Source: Lentisphaeria bacterium (GTDB lineage Bacteria; Verrucomicrobiota; Lentisphaeria; Victivallales; JAADHT01). From it: 43,413 nt of DNA. Location of the stretch: positions 1-43,413 of the forward strand of contig WFSE01000049.1 of assembly GCA_015486135.1 (NCBI GenBank), read 5' to 3'. The position numbers and the translations under genes are program-made. Within the stretch, counting starts at the first letter, position 1, and each line of letters opens with the position of its first letter. The notes under the pieces were generated by a model. It did not search any database. It had not been told where the DNA came from and saw only the letters and a list, made by a program, of their open reading frames with translations. Shown one piece after another: positions 1,409 to 31,191 of the stretch.

Positions 1409-1473
1409 TTTTCTCAATGTTCGGGGTGGGGCATAGGGGCTTTATTTCGGTGGAATCAGAGTTGCGAAGTTGG

Positions 1474-1547
1474 TGGGCGATGCAGGACTCGAACCTGCGA
1501 CAACTTGGGTGTAAACCAAGTGCTCTAGCCAACTGAGCTAATCGCCC
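1474..1547 (-). tRNA. tRNA-Val (anticodon UAC)
   Basis: On the minus strand the sequence folds as a standard cloverleaf. The acceptor stem is GGGCGAT paired with ATCGCCC and discriminator A. The D arm contains AGCTCAGTTGGCTAGAGC. The anticodon stem CTTGG/CCAAG encloses loop TTTACAC, giving anticodon TAC. The T arm is GCAGG-TTCGAGT-CCTGC. The 3' CCA is not encoded. It sits between the minus-strand topA and the end of the GH2-like gene. Confidence 0.95.
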
Positions 1548-9222: not shown

Positions 9223-9530
9223 GGTTATTGAAAGTAGCTCCCGCTTCGCTCGGGAAGTGAGGGACGCGATGTACCGAAAAAGTCGAGAATGGGCTAGTGG
9301 CTCCGCTTCAGTGAACTTGCGGCGGGACAGGCTGGCGGGACATGTAGGCAATGAGCCAATCCTTCCTGGAATTGGCAAGTGCGTAAAAATGGGCGAAAAT
9401 CATCGTCAGGGCCAAGGCTTTTGAGCCCCCCACACAGTCTTGGAGACGACACCATCAAAAAAGGCATTTAACCCGATGAAAATACAGCACTTGCAAATTA
9501 TTCAGCAGGCCTTGGTTATTCAGAGCCGAT
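9223..9530. repeat. MITE-like repeat, copy B (near full length, diverged)
   Basis: This fills most of the 365-bp gap between the pseudopilin terminator and the next gene. It shares GAAAAAGTCGAGAA and GGGctAGTGGCT with 42445-42481. It shares GCGGGACATGTAG, GGAATTGGCAAGTGC, CCAAGGCTTTTG, the GACACCATCAAAAA-like segment and ATGAAAAT-CAGCACTTG with copy C at 18942-19256. The central hairpin is degenerate here (CCAAGGCT against AGTCTTGG). No gene is seen in it. Confidence 0.7.
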
Positions 9531-9547
9531 AAACACGCTCTACCACC

Positions 9548-11425
9548 ATGAAATCAGCAATTGACAATGGGGAAAAATCGTCCGCGGAACTTCGCGGGGA
9601 TTTTTCGCTTTCCCTTTTGGCAATTTTCCTAGCATTCGGATTGCTTTGGCGGCCACTATTGTTGTCTACCCCTTTCTCCGGCATAGGACGTGCCTGGGAA
9701 TTGGTTTTAGTGGACGACCACGTCCTAGGAGCATTGGCGTTATGCCTTCTATTGGCGGCGGTCTTAAAAAAAGGTATACTTAGTTCCAAGTGGGACATCC
9801 GCATAGCCTTAGGGGCGCTAGCTTTCATTTGCGTGTCACTATTCCAATTCATGGAGCATGAAAACTACTCGTTCAGAGAGTTTTGCGTTTCCACGATATG
9901 GGTGTCAATTCCGTGGGTGGCGTATCTTTACCGTCACATCCTCAAGAAGATGATTGGGCCCTATTTCCTTCTTTTTTGGTTGTTCAACACAGTGTACGCG
10001 GTTCCCGAATGGCTTATCGGCACTGGCCCCGTGGGTATAACTGGCAACCGCAACTGGCATGGCAGCCTCCTAGTCGCCACCGCCCCGTTTGCCACCTACT
10101 ATCTTTATCGCGCTCTAATATGGCGATGGGGAAGCCAAACCGCTGTCAAAATACTTTCGGCAATCCCGGCAATCATATCGCTTCCCATTATTTTCAAGTG
10201 CGAATCTCGCGGAGCCAATGTGGGATTACTTGTGGGCGCATATGCGTGCGGCGTGGCGACATTGGTTTCTCACGAAAACAAACGCTACAGGCGCAAGGCT
10301 GTCAAATTTGTGATATCGACTGTCATCGCTATAGTCTTGGCTGGAGTGGTTTTCATCATTTTGTATGGGGACAAGCTCGCCTCCGCGATTTCGGAGGATG
10401 TCAGGCCACCGTTATGGAACGGAGCGGCGGAAATGGCGATTAACAACCCGGTGATGGGAGTTGGCCAGCCTAGCTACGAATCGCACTACGCTAAATATAT
10501 TCCTTGGGCGAGATTTTTGCGTTCCCGATATTACACCACCCGATCGGACCACCCGCACAACCACCTCTTGTACCTAGCGGGCTCCTTCGGCATCTTGGGA
10601 CTTTTGCCTCTGGCGCTTTTCTACCTGCTCCCGTTCGGGTGCTTGCGGAAGTTCAATAGCTTGACTCCAGTATCCAAAATGCTCTTTTTCGCCTATGTGG
10701 CGTTGCTGACGCACTCCATGTTCGATTTGGTTGCCTCGCGTTGGCCAACCAACATACTGCTATTACTCTCGCAAGGCATGTTGATTGGAGATGCGGTCTC
10801 GGAACCGAACGAAAAAGATATTAAGCGTCATCGATTGATGCCCTTTGGGGGAATGGCGGTGGTTGCGTCGCTAGTGGCGGCATTAATGCTTGCCTTGGCC
10901 GTAGGCATGGCGATTAAAAACGCCCGCTCGTCTTATGAACGACGTTTGGCGGGATTCGCGTATGACCATCGCAACCTGCCTTTGGCATTGCATTTTTACG
11001 ACAAATCCGCGTCAATCCAACCCGCACCTAAAGTACTGTATAACGCCGGGATACTATCTTTGCTCCACTTCAACGACCCGTATCTAGGGTGGAAATATTT
11101 TTCCGCGTTGGAAGCCAGGCCGGATAGAATATTGGCGCACGCCAACTCCCACATGGCCGACTGTTGCCTTAGGTTCGGTTGGAAGCGAGAAGCATTACGT
11201 TATTTGGAATTGGAATTAGTCGCCCAACCGACCTCGCTTGTGGCCTTGTACAACAAGCTTGCGCTGGAGCGCTCCTTGCGCATGGACGCCGCCGCTAGCG
11301 ATACAGCTCAAAGAATTATGGGAGTTTTGAAATTCAAAGGATTGAAACTGGAAGACCTCCGCATGATTTTGGCGAATCCAAGGTGCGACGGCAAATTCTA
11401 TATGTTGAAGGAGTGGAACCATTGA
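9548..11425 (+). CDS. O-antigen ligase/polymerase-like membrane protein with a TPR-like tail
   Basis: The 625-residue protein has roughly 12 hydrophobic segments over residues 20-460 and then a soluble C-terminal region. The WaaL/Wzy_C-like signatures are GITGNRNWHGSLL, CESRGANVGLL and a periplasmic-loop HPHNHLLYLAGSFGILGLL, with the conserved histidine pair. Such proteins join or polymerise glycan chains at the outer face of the inner membrane. The last 160 residues look like TPR helices (ALHFYDKSASIQPAPKVLYNAG, then AREALRYLELEL-like units), a fusion common in PVC and Bacteroidetes homologues. No clear Shine-Dalgarno site precedes the ATG. The gene begins just after repeat copy B and overlaps the next gene, so the two probably act in one glycan pathway. 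Confidence 0.8.
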   Translation: MKSAIDNGEKSSAELRGDFSLSLLAIFLAFGLLWRPLLLSTPFSGIGRAWELVLVDDHVLGALALCLLLAAVLKKGILSSKWDIRIALGALAFICVSLFQFMEHENYSFREFCVSTIWVSIPWVAYLYRHILKKMIGPYFLLFWLFNTVYAVPEWLIGTGPVGITGNRNWHGSLLVATAPFATYYLYRALIWRWGSQTAVKILSAIPAIISLPIIFKCESRGANVGLLVGAYACGVATLVSHENKRYRRKAVKFVISTVIAIVLAGVVFIILYGDKLASAISEDVRPPLWNGAAEMAINNPVMGVGQPSYESHYAKYIPWARFLRSRYYTTRSDHPHNHLLYLAGSFGILGLLPLALFYLLPFGCLRKFNSLTPVSKMLFFAYVALLTHSMFDLVASRWPTNILLLLSQGMLIGDAVSEPNEKDIKRHRLMPFGGMAVVASLVAALMLALAVGMAIKNARSSYERRLAGFAYDHRNLPLALHFYDKSASIQPAPKVLYNAGILSLLHFNDPYLGWKYFSALEARPDRILAHANSHMADCCLRFGWKREALRYLELELVAQPTSLVALYNKLALERSLRMDAAASDTAQRIMGVLKFKGLKLEDLRMILANPRCDGKFYMLKEWNH

Positions 11426-18941: not shown

Positions 18942-19256
18942 AGGGTTACTGAAAAAGTTGGAAACGTGCCGAGCCTCCGTCGCCGCTTAGGCGGCTTCCA
19001 CCTCCGTATGAAGCTACGGCGTGACAAGACGGCGGGACATGTAGACAAAGTGTCCCAGCGAAGCGAAGAACACCTTTAAGCCACACGAACGTGTGTCGCG
19101 GAATTGGCAAGTGCCTAAAATCGTTAGTCGGCTCCAAGGCTTTTGGGAGGTCCGCTCCCAAAACCTTGGAGATGACACCGTTAAAAACAGGCCTAACCAA
19201 ATGAAAATTAAGCACTTGCCAATTATTCAGCAGGCCCCAATTATTCAGTGAGCCCT
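18942..19256. repeat. MITE-like repeat, copy C (best-preserved, about 315 bp)
   Basis: This copy starts AGGGTTACTGAAAAAGTT and its reverse complement begins AGGGCTCACTGAATAATT, so the ends are imperfect inverted repeats. Inside are two small hairpins near 18980-19022, the conserved GCGGGACATGTAG and GGAATTGGCAAGTGC, a 17-bp hairpin at 19132-19171, then ATGAAAATTAAGCACTTGCC. The last part holds two tandem end motifs. It carries no substantial reading frame. Right of it, TA adjoins the terminus (CCCTA). Confidence 0.75.
19132..19171. other. Long hairpin inside repeat copy C
   Basis: CTCCAAGG, a bulged C and TTTTGGGAG pair with CTCCCAAAA and CCTTGGAG around a GTCCG loop, which gives a 17-bp stem. 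The same hairpin with near-identical arms recurs at 30893-30930 and in decayed form at 9411-9445. No T-run follows, so it is not a classic terminator. Confidence 0.8.
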
Positions 19257-19298
19257 AGCGAAGCGGGTGATTGGAAAGGATGGAAGAAAATGCGAATG

Positions 19299-27021: not shown

Positions 27022-27620
27022 TTAGGACGATAATGGGAAGTTCAGGACTAGAATAGCTTAATCACAATGCCAACGTTGTAGGCGGCAGATCCGTGTTTTT
27101 AAGATTTATCCCACCACGGAGAGCATGAAGCCCACGAAGATGCCGCTTCTGCGTGCGGAACCGGCATGCTGCGGGGAAGAGGAAAGAAACTCTGCGTTCT
27201 TTGCGTCTTCGCGAGGAATAGAAACCGCGCGAAGCGTGTTTGAGCCGTAGGCTCTTTGGAGTGCCTGTGCTGAGCTTGTCGAAGTGCGGCGGCCCTGTGC
27301 CGCTTTGGATTATTGGGGGGCAGGGAGACCGGGGGACAAGGGGACGCAAGACACAGGACTCAAGACGGCAATGCGAGTGCTTAGGGACAGGTTAACTGTG
27401 GATGCTCGGGACGCTTGGTTTCGAGCATTTGATTTTTGAAAATCCGAATTTGTTTAGAATTTCGGATTTCTTATTTCGGATTTTCACATGTGCTTGCCAA
27501 TTATTCAGTGAGCCCTATTTGGTTTTGCGGGATGCAAAACGTTGTTTAGGTGGTATATTTTGCGGTATGGCCCTGCGGGCGGGGTGTCGGAGTGAATTAC
27601 GTGACATGAGGGACGGTGCG
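27022..27620. other. Intergenic stretch with mixed short repeats, no gene seen
   Basis: This 599-bp gap holds TGGGAAGTTCAGGACTAG at about 27033, possibly the right end of the decayed insertion sequence. It also has GTGCCTGTGCTGAGCTTGTCGAAG (27261-27284), whose reverse complement contains CTTCGACAAGCTCAGCAC, a dispersed repeat seen in many bacteria. TCTGCGTTCTTTGCGTCTTCGCGAG (27193-27217) is echoed near 28209-28238. A run of TTTCGGATTT repeats lies at 27440-27490 and a repeat terminus at 27492-27516. No coding region is convincing. Confidence 0.6.
27492..27516. repeat. MITE-like repeat terminus, copy D
   Basis: GCTTGCCAATTATTCAGTG followed by AGCCCTA matches the last 25 bases of copy C exactly except for the missing tandem unit. 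The rest of the element is absent. Confidence 0.65.
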
Positions 27621-28097
27621 ATGAATTTCAGAAAACGCATAGTGGAGAATCAGCCTGGCTTCCAAATGGCGCCGATGATCGACATAGTGTTTCTGCTTCT
27701 CATCTTTTTCATCGCCGCGTCGGTCTATTCCCAATGGGAGTCGAAACTGGGGATAAAGGTTCCCACCGCGAAGAGCGCGGAAGAGCGTCCCCGTTTTCCG
27801 GGCGAAGCGATAATCAACATAGACGCCAACGGCAAGTATTATCTCAACTCGATCGAGTTCACGCCCGGCAGGCTGAAGACCGTGCTAGCCAAACTGGCGG
27901 AGACATATCCGGGACAGCCTGTGGTCGTCCGCGCCGACAAACGGGCGCCGTGCCGTTATCTGATTCAGGTCATCGACATCTGCGCCCAAACCGATATCGG
28001 CGACATTTCGTTCGCCACAATCAAGCCATCCTCGGGCGGGGGCAAACGGGGAGGCGCTGGAGCCGCCGCACCGCCGCCCAAGGGGAACGGCAAATAA
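27621..28097 (+). CDS. ExbD/TolR-family biopolymer transport protein
   Basis: A 158-residue inner-membrane protein with one N-terminal helix and a periplasmic domain. The helix contains the key Asp in PMIDIVFLLLIFFIAASV, which carries protons in ExbB-ExbD and TolQ-TolR motors. The periplasmic part has VVVRADKRAPCRYLIQVIDICAQ, typical of the family, and ends in a Gly/Lys/Pro-rich tail (SSGGGKRGGAG and on). The ATG at 27621 has GAGGGA seven bases upstream; ATG 27606 and longer starts are less likely. No exbB/tolQ gene is adjacent. It lies upstream of a large TPR gene, a pairing common in PVC bacteria. Confidence 0.85.
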   Translation: MNFRKRIVENQPGFQMAPMIDIVFLLLIFFIAASVYSQWESKLGIKVPTAKSAEERPRFPGEAIINIDANGKYYLNSIEFTPGRLKTVLAKLAETYPGQPVVVRADKRAPCRYLIQVIDICAQTDIGDISFATIKPSSGGGKRGGAGAAAPPPKGNGK

Positions 28098-28297
28098 GAC
28101 CTAGTAGGCAGGGGTTATTTTCCGGCGGCGGCGGAAATCCAAGATGAGAAATCCGAAGCTCGAAATACTATCTGTCCTCCGTAGCTTGGAGGGCAGGCGG
28201 GATTTAGCATCTCCGCATTCTTTGCTTCTCTGCGAGGGAAAGCAAAAGGAGAAGAGAGCGTCCCGCAGAATTCGCGGAGGCCTCGAAGGGTAAGAGT
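28098..28297. other. Intergenic spacer with degenerate short repeats
   Basis: It holds ATCCGAAGCTCGAAATAC, a stretch TGTCCTCCGTAGCTTGGAGGGCAGG that can form a hairpin, and TCTCCGCATTCTTTGCTTCTCTGCG, which resembles 27193-27217. No gene is seen. GAAGGG near 28284 serves the next start. Confidence 0.5.
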
Positions 28298-30784
28298 ATG
28301 TTTAACCAGATGAAAACAAAGCACTTGCCAATTATTCCACAGGTCCTGCGGAGCGCTGCTATCGCCACCATTTTCGTGGCATGCGCTCGGGCTACGTTCG
28401 GGACTCCTCCCGCCGCCGTTCCCAAATCCGGCGGGCATGTGGTCTCAAACGACGAGAAGAAGCTCTACATAGACGAGCAGATCCGTTTCGCCGAGGGGTT
28501 GCGCAAACGCAAGCACTACGATTTAGCCATCGAGGAGTACAAAAGGCTGGTCGGCAGGTTCAAAGACAATCCCATAGTTGCGCAGGCTTGGGCGAATCTG
28601 GCGCGCGTATTGGCGGAGAAGGGGGATTACGATGCCGCGTTCAAGACATTCGACTACTTTTTCAAGACATTCCCTGATTCGAGGATATTCCATGCGACCA
28701 AGCTCCGTCGCGCGTTGGCGCTACACTCATCCAAGATCCCAGGAGGCAAAAAAGAGGCGGAAAAGGCGTTGACTGAATTGGAGGGGGATTCCAAGGCGCC
28801 CGCGATAATCCGCGACGCGGCGGCGTACCACTTGGCGTCTTTCGTGTTGTCAGACGGTCGAACTGAAGAGGCGATGAAAAAATTCGCCGCCTTGGCGAAG
28901 CTCGGCGTCACCTCGTCTCCCGAGCATGACTTCCGGGCGTCGGCGGCAATGAGATTGGCGACAATACTGGCGAAACGGAACAAGATTAAGGAAGCAATGG
29001 CCGCCATTCGGCCGCTGGTGTCGGGGAAGGGACTTTCCAGCGACATTCGTTCGCGCGCCATGTACGCTCTTGGCTCGCTGGCGCTTAGGGAAAAAGACTA
29101 CGCCAGCGCCGACAAGCTATTCGCGGAGCTCGCGGCGTTGTTTCCCAGCAATGCGTTGGCGGTGGAGGCGTCCAAGAACAGATTATCGGTTTTGTTTCGA
29201 CTAGGCGACTACCAAAGTGTGGCGCTCGAGTCGGACAAATTGCTAAAAAGGCGGGACATCTCGACCGCGGATCTCGCGGATATCCACGCGTTGAAAGGCG
29301 CGGCGTTGGCTAAACTCGGTTTCGACATCAAGGCGCTGAAAGAGTTCGAATTTGTTTTGAAATCGAAATTCACCTCGTCCGAAACGAGACGGTTCGCAGA
29401 GCTTCAACGTGTAAAAACATTGTTGAATTCCGGGAATACCGCAGCCGCGCTCGCCACGGGGGAAAGGATTGTCAACGCCAACCCCCTGGATGGCGGTCTG
29501 GCTTGCGACGTTATCGTTCTTTTGAAATCCAAAGCGCCTCCCGCCAAGATCGAGGCGTTATTGAAAAAAGCGGTGGCCCGACTAGATACCGCCACGCTGG
29601 AAGGGTCTTCCACCCGACTGCAACTGGCATCTCTGCTCAGCAGTCGCGGCAAAAGGGATGAAGCGTTGAAGATTTTGGATTTCGTGGCTGAAAAGGGATT
29701 CCCGAGGCTCAAGCCATACGCCACCTTGGCCGCCGCAAGGGTTTTGGAATCAAAAGGTGATATCGCCGAAGCTCTGAAAAAACTCGAGGAGCTTGTCCGG
29801 ACGTGCTCCAGCAAAGATATCAGGCCAGACGCCATGCTGAAGACAGCGGTGTTGTTGCTGAGGGACGAAAAGCAATGGGATTCCGCCGTCGCCTACTTGG
29901 ACGAGATTGGCAAGAAATATCCAGGCACCTCCTTCGCCGCCGCCGCTATTTTCTACAAAGGATTTTTGGAGTTCCAGAAAGGGCGTTGGGATGCCGCCGA
30001 GAAAATATTGAGACAGGCGGTTTCCCCAAAAAACAAGGAGCTCAGCCCCGTCTTGTCGAATTCTGCCAAGGTATATCTAGCCTGGACGTTTTTAAGGAAA
30101 AAGGACTTCAAACAGGCCCTTGCCGTGGCGGAAAAACTTCCAGCCGAAGCGTTTCGGAGCGCTCCTCCGGCTTTTCTCGAGGAAACAGGACGGATCGCAC
30201 TGAAAAACGCGCATGATTTGGCCAATCGATGCTTTGCCGCGCTTTCCGCGTCCAACGACCCTGTGGAACGTCAACATGGAATTATCGGCAAAGCGAAATT
30301 AGCGGTGGCCGCGGGGGATTCAGTAAAAGCCATCGACATCTACAAGGAGGCTTCCAAGATGACCGCCGACCCCGTCGCCACCAACAAGGCGATTCTGGCG
30401 CTTGGGGAGCTTTTAGCGCAACGCGGAAACGACGACGAAGCGGTGCTCTACATTGAAAAGTGCCTGGAAAACCCTGTTGACAAAGCGGTATCCGCCAAGG
30501 CGCGCCTCGCTTTGGCCAAAATCCTTTCCAAAAAACCGGATAGACTGAAGGTCGCCAATCGCTACGCCATGTCGGTATTCGTCCTATCCCCGAACAACGA
30601 CACTTGCGCCGAGGCAATGTTGCTCAGCGCAGAGCTTTCCATTCGCGCCAACAATATATCCGAGGCCCGGGACACCTTCCGCGAATTCCGTAAAAGATTT
30701 CCTGATAGACTCTCATCCAAACGAGCAAAAGGTATCGCCGCCAAACTCACAGACTCCCCTCTCTCCGAAAGCCACAGAAAGTAA
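28298..30784 (+). CDS. Secreted TPR-repeat protein; N-terminus derived from a repeat element
   Basis: The 828-residue protein has a signal peptide (LRSAAIATIFVACARATFGT, cleavage near residue 35) and then about 15 or more TPR-like units from residue 60 onward, with typical ALRLA/AEKALTELE-type helices (ALALGELLAQRGNDDEAVLY near the end). It is probably periplasmic or outer-membrane associated. Bases 28301-28346, coding MFNQMKTKHLPIIPQVL (start Met to Leu17), match the right part of the MITE-like repeat (TTAACC-ATGAAAA-AAGCACTTGCCAATTATTC). The n-region of the signal peptide therefore came from the repeat. The ATG at 28298 has GAAGGG seven bases upstream; the repeat's own ATG is at 28310. It follows exbD by 200 bases. 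Confidence 0.85.
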   Translation: MFNQMKTKHLPIIPQVLRSAAIATIFVACARATFGTPPAAVPKSGGHVVSNDEKKLYIDEQIRFAEGLRKRKHYDLAIEEYKRLVGRFKDNPIVAQAWANLARVLAEKGDYDAAFKTFDYFFKTFPDSRIFHATKLRRALALHSSKIPGGKKEAEKALTELEGDSKAPAIIRDAAAYHLASFVLSDGRTEEAMKKFAALAKLGVTSSPEHDFRASAAMRLATILAKRNKIKEAMAAIRPLVSGKGLSSDIRSRAMYALGSLALREKDYASADKLFAELAALFPSNALAVEASKNRLSVLFRLGDYQSVALESDKLLKRRDISTADLADIHALKGAALAKLGFDIKALKEFEFVLKSKFTSSETRRFAELQRVKTLLNSGNTAAALATGERIVNANPLDGGLACDVIVLLKSKAPPAKIEALLKKAVARLDTATLEGSSTRLQLASLLSSRGKRDEALKILDFVAEKGFPRLKPYATLAAARVLESKGDIAEALKKLEELVRTCSSKDIRPDAMLKTAVLLLRDEKQWDSAVAYLDEIGKKYPGTSFAAAAIFYKGFLEFQKGRWDAAEKILRQAVSPKNKELSPVLSNSAKVYLAWTFLRKKDFKQALAVAEKLPAEAFRSAPPAFLEETGRIALKNAHDLANRCFAALSASNDPVERQHGIIGKAKLAVAAGDSVKAIDIYKEASKMTADPVATNKAILALGELLAQRGNDDEAVLYIEKCLENPVDKAVSAKARLALAKILSKKPDRLKVANRYAMSVFVLSPNNDTCAEAMLLSAELSIRANNISEARDTFREFRKRFPDRLSSKRAKGIAAKLTDSPLSESHRK
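28301..28346. repeat. MITE-like repeat fragment, copy E, inside the TPR gene
   Basis: TTTAACCAGATGAAAACAAAG then CACTTGCCAATTATTCCACAGG (read in two pieces) differ from copies C and F at only a few positions. The fragment is in frame with the TPR protein and encodes its first residues. Confidence 0.65.
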
Positions 30785-30839: not shown

Positions 30840-31015
30840 ACATGCGTCCGTGTGTTTTTCTGAAACACCCTAGAGCCTCTAACGATTTGAGGCTCCAAGG
30901 GTTTTGGGAGATTCTCCCAAAACATTGGAGATCGGCACTATTAAAAACAGGCTTAACCCAATGAAAATTAAGCACTTGCCAATTATTCAGCAGGACCCAA
31001 TTATTCAGTGGGACC
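30840..31015. repeat. MITE-like repeat, copy F (right two thirds)
   Basis: It contains the long hairpin at 30893-30930 (CTCCAAGG-G-TTTTGGGAG, loop ATT, CTCCCAAAACATTGGAG), then ATGAAAATTAAGCACTTGCC and two tandem end motifs ending TGGGACCTA. It matches copy C closely from the hairpin onward. The left end is not clear. Confidence 0.72.
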
Positions 31016-31191
31016 TAAAGGGATCCTTCGCTTCGCAGGGAGAGTTCGCCAGTGTATCCACTAGGGAAGGGGCATCATTCCCATGGCATCCAGTGCCAAT
31101 TCCACGCTTTACCCCCTCCGTGCCGCAGGCACCGTTCCGGCTTTGCTGAAGGGGTACCGACTTCGTCGGCTCATAGCCCCAGTTGAATCTA

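Follow-up and report, generated by a model that had tools for sequence, protein, structure and literature searches.

The window considered here is the whole 43,413-nt stretch of contig WFSE01000049.1 from a Lentisphaeria bacterium (assembly GCA_015486135.1), and its subject is a short dispersed repeat that overlaps the 5' end of a gene for a TPR protein. The repeat is a miniature inverted-repeat transposable element (MITE). One end of this mobile element appears to supply the start codon and about the first dozen residues of several genes of the genome, including those for the TPR protein, PseC, an NAD-dependent epimerase, an ATP-grasp protein and MiaA. Judged from the sequence, the probability of this reading is about 80%. 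The features at the start of the TPR gene are the following:

28291-28350, forward strand: right part of the MITE, overlapping the TPR gene start; identical to the family consensus at 43 of 60 bases
28298-28300, forward strand: upstream in-frame ATG, taken as the start in a preliminary description of the window; not conserved in the repeat
28310-28312, forward strand: ATG belonging to the repeat itself and in the reading frame of the TPR protein; pairing 5' of it -2.4 kcal/mol
28298-30784, forward strand: TPR protein gene, 828 amino acids; residues 1-17 derived from the repeat, followed by a hydrophobic segment and TPR repeats
27402-28097, forward strand: ExbD/TolR gene, directly 5' of the TPR gene

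The preliminary description had noted that the 5' end of the TPR gene matches the right part of the repeat, internal ATG included, and this was confirmed. Compared with the consensus of 91 other ATG-bearing copies, the best-matching section is 28310-28337, where 27 of 28 bases agree and the sole mismatch is a T to C change (AAAATA versus AAAACA). The match is confined to the right part; the left arm of the element is not seen at this copy. The internal ATG at 28310, which is Met5 of the protein as first described, is the repeat's own, whereas the ATG at 28298 lies within the aligned sequence but corresponds to GGA in the consensus. A weak Shine-Dalgarno-like AAGGG (-4.6 kcal/mol) is found 5' of the latter. 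A translation start downstream, which would speak against a role of the repeat, was sought in the sequence. Counted from 28310, the later possible starts are a TTG at residue 6, still inside the repeat, and a GTG at residue 23; the GTG is the only candidate past the repeat and falls inside the hydrophobic segment. Read by eye, the N-terminus consists of two lysines followed by SAAIATIFVACA, and the repeat-derived residues may form the n-region of a putative secretion signal. A scan of 28050-28400 with the sigma-70 consensus yielded no promoter.

Matches to the TPR protein were obtained in 19 genomes (own genome included), and the best eight relatives were examined. The ExbD gene lies just 5' of the TPR gene in all eight, as it does here, and the repeat peptide is found in none of them, in line with the proposed recruitment of the N-terminus. 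Orthologue alignments start at query residues 45-49 in seven relatives and at residue 24 in one. In one relative (L044), a tblastn alignment extends as far as TPR residue 1, but with the reading MFEILKFRISNLF. Seven of the eight relatives have, by eye, their own hydrophobic stretch ahead of the conserved part; none is present in the part of L044 that was read.

Repeat finding in the window revealed a 56-base family at 9457, 19182, 28291 and 30942, besides further partial ends. Over 56 nt, the copy at 28291-28346 is 73%, 79% and 79% identical to the three others. The genome is a draft (2.98 Mb, 91% complete, 195 contigs), in which a 29-base core is found at 162 places with up to three mismatches (84 forward, 78 reverse; none for a backwards control) and a 20-base core at 246 places with up to two. 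Among 59 further genomes from the same family or order, the 20-base core gave one single match (2 mismatches). The exact core has only two single matches among the genomes of named species, both in unrelated bacteria and taken as chance. It is absent from viral contigs, and one near-full copy has no plasmid match, in collections that may leave out very near relatives. The repeat family is thus real and, within the collections searched, restricted to its own lineage. As a candidate for a known RNA family the repeat was dismissed, the window giving a tRNA alone at gathering scores.

For further analysis, 146 distinct copies (115 in a first round) were assembled from fetched loci and stretches around copies. 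They were counted by 20-mer matches with up to four mismatches in the fetched loci, and copies with identical 50 bases were counted once. Perfect identical flanks of 6-7 bp are present in 20 of 67 candidate end pairs, into which some elements enter in both orientations, versus about 0.8 upon random re-pairing of flanks. The duplicated words start with TA in 16 of these 20 cases, e.g. TACCTA, TAACGTA, TAGGATA and TAAGTTA. The 20 elements with target duplications measure 246-339 bp, which is too short for a transposase gene, and carry terminal inverted repeats (left GGGCTTGCTGAA, right TTCAGYRRGCCC, with variation). The left end TAGGGCTTGCTGAAAAAGTCG is followed by the left arm GGAATTGGCAAGTGCC...TCCAAGG, a stem-loop TTTTGGGAG...CTCCCAAAA, the right arm CCTTGGAGATGACACC and finally ...AAAAAGGAATTTAACCCAATGAAAATAAAGCACTTGCCAATTATTCAGYRRGCCC. 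Because it is short, present in many copies, bounded by inverted ends and flanked by target duplications, the repeat is a MITE by signature.

PF01609, the transposase family searched for an autonomous partner, has two matches in the genome, and neither locus is bounded by an end pair with a duplication. A further end pair with a TAAATA duplication (L013) was considered as an autonomous transposase and rejected, as it encloses an ATPase-like gene instead. This gene (261-1567 of the locus; by eye, with GPRQCGKTT) is enclosed by two element ends that face each other and share TAAATA flanks, and its stop codon lies inside a repeat right end; the arrangement resembles a cargo gene moved by the ends. 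In L086, L090, L101, L103, L117 and others, the loop of the element contains a nested insert that terminates in the palindrome CACACGAACGTGTG. Another repeat, rich in AT (TTTCGGATTTCTTATTTCG...), is located at 27453-27483 and, inverted, at 28135-28165 of the window. It lies directly 5' of MITE right halves that lack the left arm, including those at the recruited starts of the epimerase (L085) and ATP-grasp (L151) genes.

An ATG is present in 77 of the 115 first-round copies. The preliminary description had read the conserved block of other copies as MKIKHLPIIQQ, which is right for many of them. Of 93 ATG-bearing copies, 57 keep the MKIKHLPIIQ frame open beyond codon 11. In the other 36 it stops at codon 11. 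For all 146 copies, the three frames were assessed for coding that continues beyond the element, with a minimum of 60 codons and a score of 12 or more. Genes were called with a purpose-made codon-usage scorer rather than an established program, and its short-gene calls are uncertain. Nine copies code onward in the ATG frame, one of which (L091) lacks the ATG, leaving eight genes in frame from the repeat ATG:

TPR protein (window)
NAD-dependent epimerase (L085)
PseC (L033)
MiaA (L010)
ATP-grasp protein (L151)
Amt ammonium transporter (L153)
lipoprotein-like protein (L016), without a family match
RNA methyltransferase (L119)

Seven called sense genes have their start at the repeat ATG or slightly 5' of it, and an eighth has it at the very end of the element. 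An open ATG frame of 192 codons (L068) was left out, having a score of 8 and an overlapping called antisense gene, and long ATG frames with a negative coding score (e.g. L084, L027, L008, L014 and window 30970) were not counted as genes.

The frames differ in whether the gene retains a start of its own. No ATG of their own is found within 25 codons in five of nine cases in the ATG frame (TPR protein, epimerase, PseC, ATP-grasp protein and MiaA), versus none of 14 in the remaining two frames, where all have one within 22 codons. After the repeat, the first 14 (epimerase), 15 (PseC) and 18 (ATP-grasp) codons examined contain no ATG, GTG or TTG. The family models of the epimerase, PseC and MiaA begin at position 1-2, right at the repeat boundary. 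PseC residues 13-383 match positions 2-379 of 380 of TIGR03588 and MiaA residues 13-295 positions 2-284 of 288 of TIGR00174, both above the cut-off; epimerase residues 12-280 cover PF01370 from 1 to 240 of 240.

In relatives, the four enzymes have short native starts at the place where the repeat peptide sits here. A PseC relative with 72% identity starts with M-LPYGKQSIS, while the protein here reads MKKKHLQIIQGT-LPYGRQSIS. Epimerase relatives start with MKRILITGG and MKKILITGG, and the single ATP-grasp relative found at an E-value of 1e-20 or better starts with MHKVKIGVTG. MiaA relatives start with, e.g., MNKKIKTIVITGPT, MENKIKTVVVTGPT or MSEKIKILTVTGPT; some are longer or unclear. This suggests that the starts seen in relatives are what preceded the repeat at the epimerase, PseC, ATP-grasp and MiaA genes. 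For Amt, the native start is not readable from relatives. The repeat-started miaA is the sole match in the draft genome (E 0.001), which holds three PseC-like (1e-60), two Amt (1e-40) and twelve epimerase-like (0.001) matches. As a side observation, at least two miaA-like matches occur in 17 of 20 relatives, some being pieces of one gene.

In the proposed mechanism, a non-autonomous MITE would have spread within the lineage of this genome. Its outward-facing right end carries a weak ribosome-binding-like stretch (AAAAAGGA or GGG) and, about nine bases further, an ATG from which the codons ATG AAA ATA AAG CAC TTG CCA ATT ATT CAG (MKIKHLPIIQ) could be translated. Insertion between the Shine-Dalgarno sequence and the start of a gene, or into its first codons, would part the native start from its signals. 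Where frames agree, translation could proceed from the repeat ATG through the element end into the gene, and the resulting protein would have about 9-17 residues added or replaced. For the TPR gene, this would have placed MKTKHLPIIPQVL before the hydrophobic segment, to serve as the n-region of a secretion signal. Ribosomes would start at the repeat ATG, and the fusions would have survived because the gene was rescued. The insertions at the lipoprotein-like and methyltransferase genes, inspected by eye, lie just 5' of the native ATG, with a GGAGG-like stretch displaced from it. Their flanks are TAGTTA on both sides and GGATTA and GAATTA, respectively. Exaptation of a mobile sequence as a translation start, as first proposed for the TPR gene, is supported at the sequence level by the transposition signatures and by the same recruitment at other genes.

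The ribosome-binding signals of the element are mixed. Genes called in the sampled parts of the genome make moderate use of Shine-Dalgarno pairing, which averages -5.5 kcal/mol for 157 of them versus -3.2 kcal/mol at a control place, and the repeat mean is a weak -3.2 kcal/mol (85 non-fused ATG copies). Two fused copies have strong pairing, at the epimerase (-12.6 kcal/mol) and ATP-grasp (-11.8 kcal/mol) genes, a value of -7 or below being reached by 1 of the 85 non-fused copies. Some recruited copies look tuned, others do not.

Several points weigh against recruitment of the repeat ATG. PseC has no Shine-Dalgarno sequence (+1.6 kcal/mol) and that of the TPR gene is weak; a systematically stronger signal at fused copies was discarded, as the eight fused and 85 non-fused copies do not differ significantly (p = 0.14). 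Of 43 distinct changes observed in the ten repeat codons, 8 are synonymous, compared with 15 among the 90 that are possible; with no excess seen, coding selection on the repeat peptide was rejected. The ATG is more likely to be present in the element for DNA reasons and to have been co-opted where frames agreed. The copies and loci were for the most part chosen as the best matches to the consensus, and the 25-codon limit, with ATG alone counted, was fixed once the figures were known. When GTG and TTG are counted as well, 2 of 9 (epimerase and PseC) versus 0 of 14 remain without a start within 25 codons. A GTG follows nine codons past the element in the TPR and ATP-grasp genes, another is located at the MiaA junction, and Amt has a TTG. 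The lipoprotein-like and RNA methyltransferase frames hold an ATG of their own at residue 15. Translation might also start further upstream, the frame 5' of the repeat ATG being open for 90 codons in the lipoprotein-like gene and 50 in miaA; across six fused genes, the open stretch up to a stop measures 10-90 codons. Finally, a 145-base piece of one copy forms a strong RNA hairpin (z -4.9) that could hide the start.

Some of these points would also be expected if the element had merely inserted next to genes, with in-frame continuity a coincidence (1 in 3) and with translation starting downstream or the TPR product not being secreted. Many copies indeed lie 0-20 nt 5' of genes with a start of their own, in any frame, and the native ATGs of the lipoprotein-like and methyltransferase genes and the GTG or TTG that MiaA and Amt have shortly past the repeat fit this explanation. 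It is nevertheless considered improbable, as it leaves the epimerase and PseC without any start codon between the repeat and the first conserved residues, at which their family models begin, the ATP-grasp gene without one in the codons examined, and the TPR gene with just a GTG inside its hydrophobic segment. Similarity of the TPR start to the repeat by chance or convergence could be argued from the partial match of 43 out of 60 bases. With one mismatch in 28 bases at 28310-28337 and with 162 core places in the genome versus 0 in the backwards control, on which it was rejected, this is extremely improbable.

Selection might alternatively maintain the right end as a two-way gene-boundary cassette, presenting a ribosome site and an ATG outward and stops in all three frames inward, so that insertions at gene edges are tolerated or repaired rather than lethal and the element serves the genome as a source of starts and stops. 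Read inward, the right end (TAGGGCTYGCTGAATAA) contains TAG, TGA and TAA across the three frames. All three are used: the stop of a called antisense gene falls within 20 of the 146 copies (10 TAG, 7 TAA, 3 TGA). The frequency of the ATG and the clustering of called sense starts at it point in the same direction. The lack of synonymous excess and the frame closed at codon 11 in 36 of 93 copies argue against such a function; the conserved block could equally be a transposase-binding end, and biased survival of random insertions would give the same picture. A selected cassette is therefore regarded as unlikely, to much the same degree as insertion beside genes. Opportunistic recruitment of the MITE end as a start is preferred, carried by its mobility signature and copy number, the in-frame continuity and the absence of the peptide from the orthologues examined.

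The remaining copies in the window are listed below.

9451-9532, forward strand: right part of another copy, intergenic, 15 nt 5' of the gene at 9548
19176-19257, forward strand: right part of another copy with doubled end, intergenic
27488-27520, forward strand: lone right end of the element, intergenic, a little 5' of the ExbD gene
30936-31017, forward strand: right part of another copy with doubled end, 3' of the TPR gene

A partial repeat end at 1383-1410 lies near a tRNA-Val (TAC) gene (1471-1547, reverse strand).

A start codon is usually taken to descend together with its gene. In this lineage, several unrelated conserved genes seem to have had their starts exchanged for that of a single mobile repeat, among them the only miaA, a tRNA modification enzyme gene, detected in the draft genome. 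These genes form a natural set in which to compare how start sites turn over, how ribosome sites are tuned and how far changes at the N-terminus are tolerated. For annotation, starts beside repeats may easily be miscalled. Beyond the precedents cited below, MITE-supplied start codons of conserved genes were not found in open-access titles and abstract beginnings, a scope that does not prove their absence.

The nearest precedent is the enterobacterial RU-2 (Yersinia palindromic sequence). According to the passages on it, this MITE forms N-termini, also that of the annotated acetyltransferase YP_0349, and the signal peptide of YPO1552 is partly MITE-made (Delihas 2007, PMC2759123, PMC2229807). 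Both elements are found at N-termini. RU-2 differs in sequence, in its length of 168 bp and in its continuous 56-residue frame, and start codons are not a topic of these passages; in the present genome, several conserved enzymes would each take about 10-13 residues from the end of the element. The pneumococcal BOX element is described as providing the stop codon of 36 genes and the start codon in three expressed cases (PMC3049150); the present repeat likewise contains stops of genes and may supply starts. The BOX-started products, as reported there, match hypothetical coding sequences only and lack a good Shine-Dalgarno sequence.

Rickettsia palindromic elements (RPEs) and in-frame MITE fusions are described in a review of prokaryotic MITEs (PMC10969869), in the searchable text of which the wording 'start codon' is absent. 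RPEs are mobile short repeats translated in frame with host genes, as is proposed here. They are inserted into coding frames, whereas the present repeat is located at the gene start, and among the 115 first-round copies none lies inside a called gene except at the TPR start. The Coxiella elements QMITE1/2 are MITEs that give stop codons and C-terminal residues, to which the inward stops of the present repeat correspond; for genes of known function, no 5' effects were reported in that study (PMC5896051). Unlike QMITE1/2, the repeat described here lies at the 5' end of the epimerase, PseC, MiaA and ATP-grasp genes, which suggests that a MITE can occupy the 5' ends of genes of known function.
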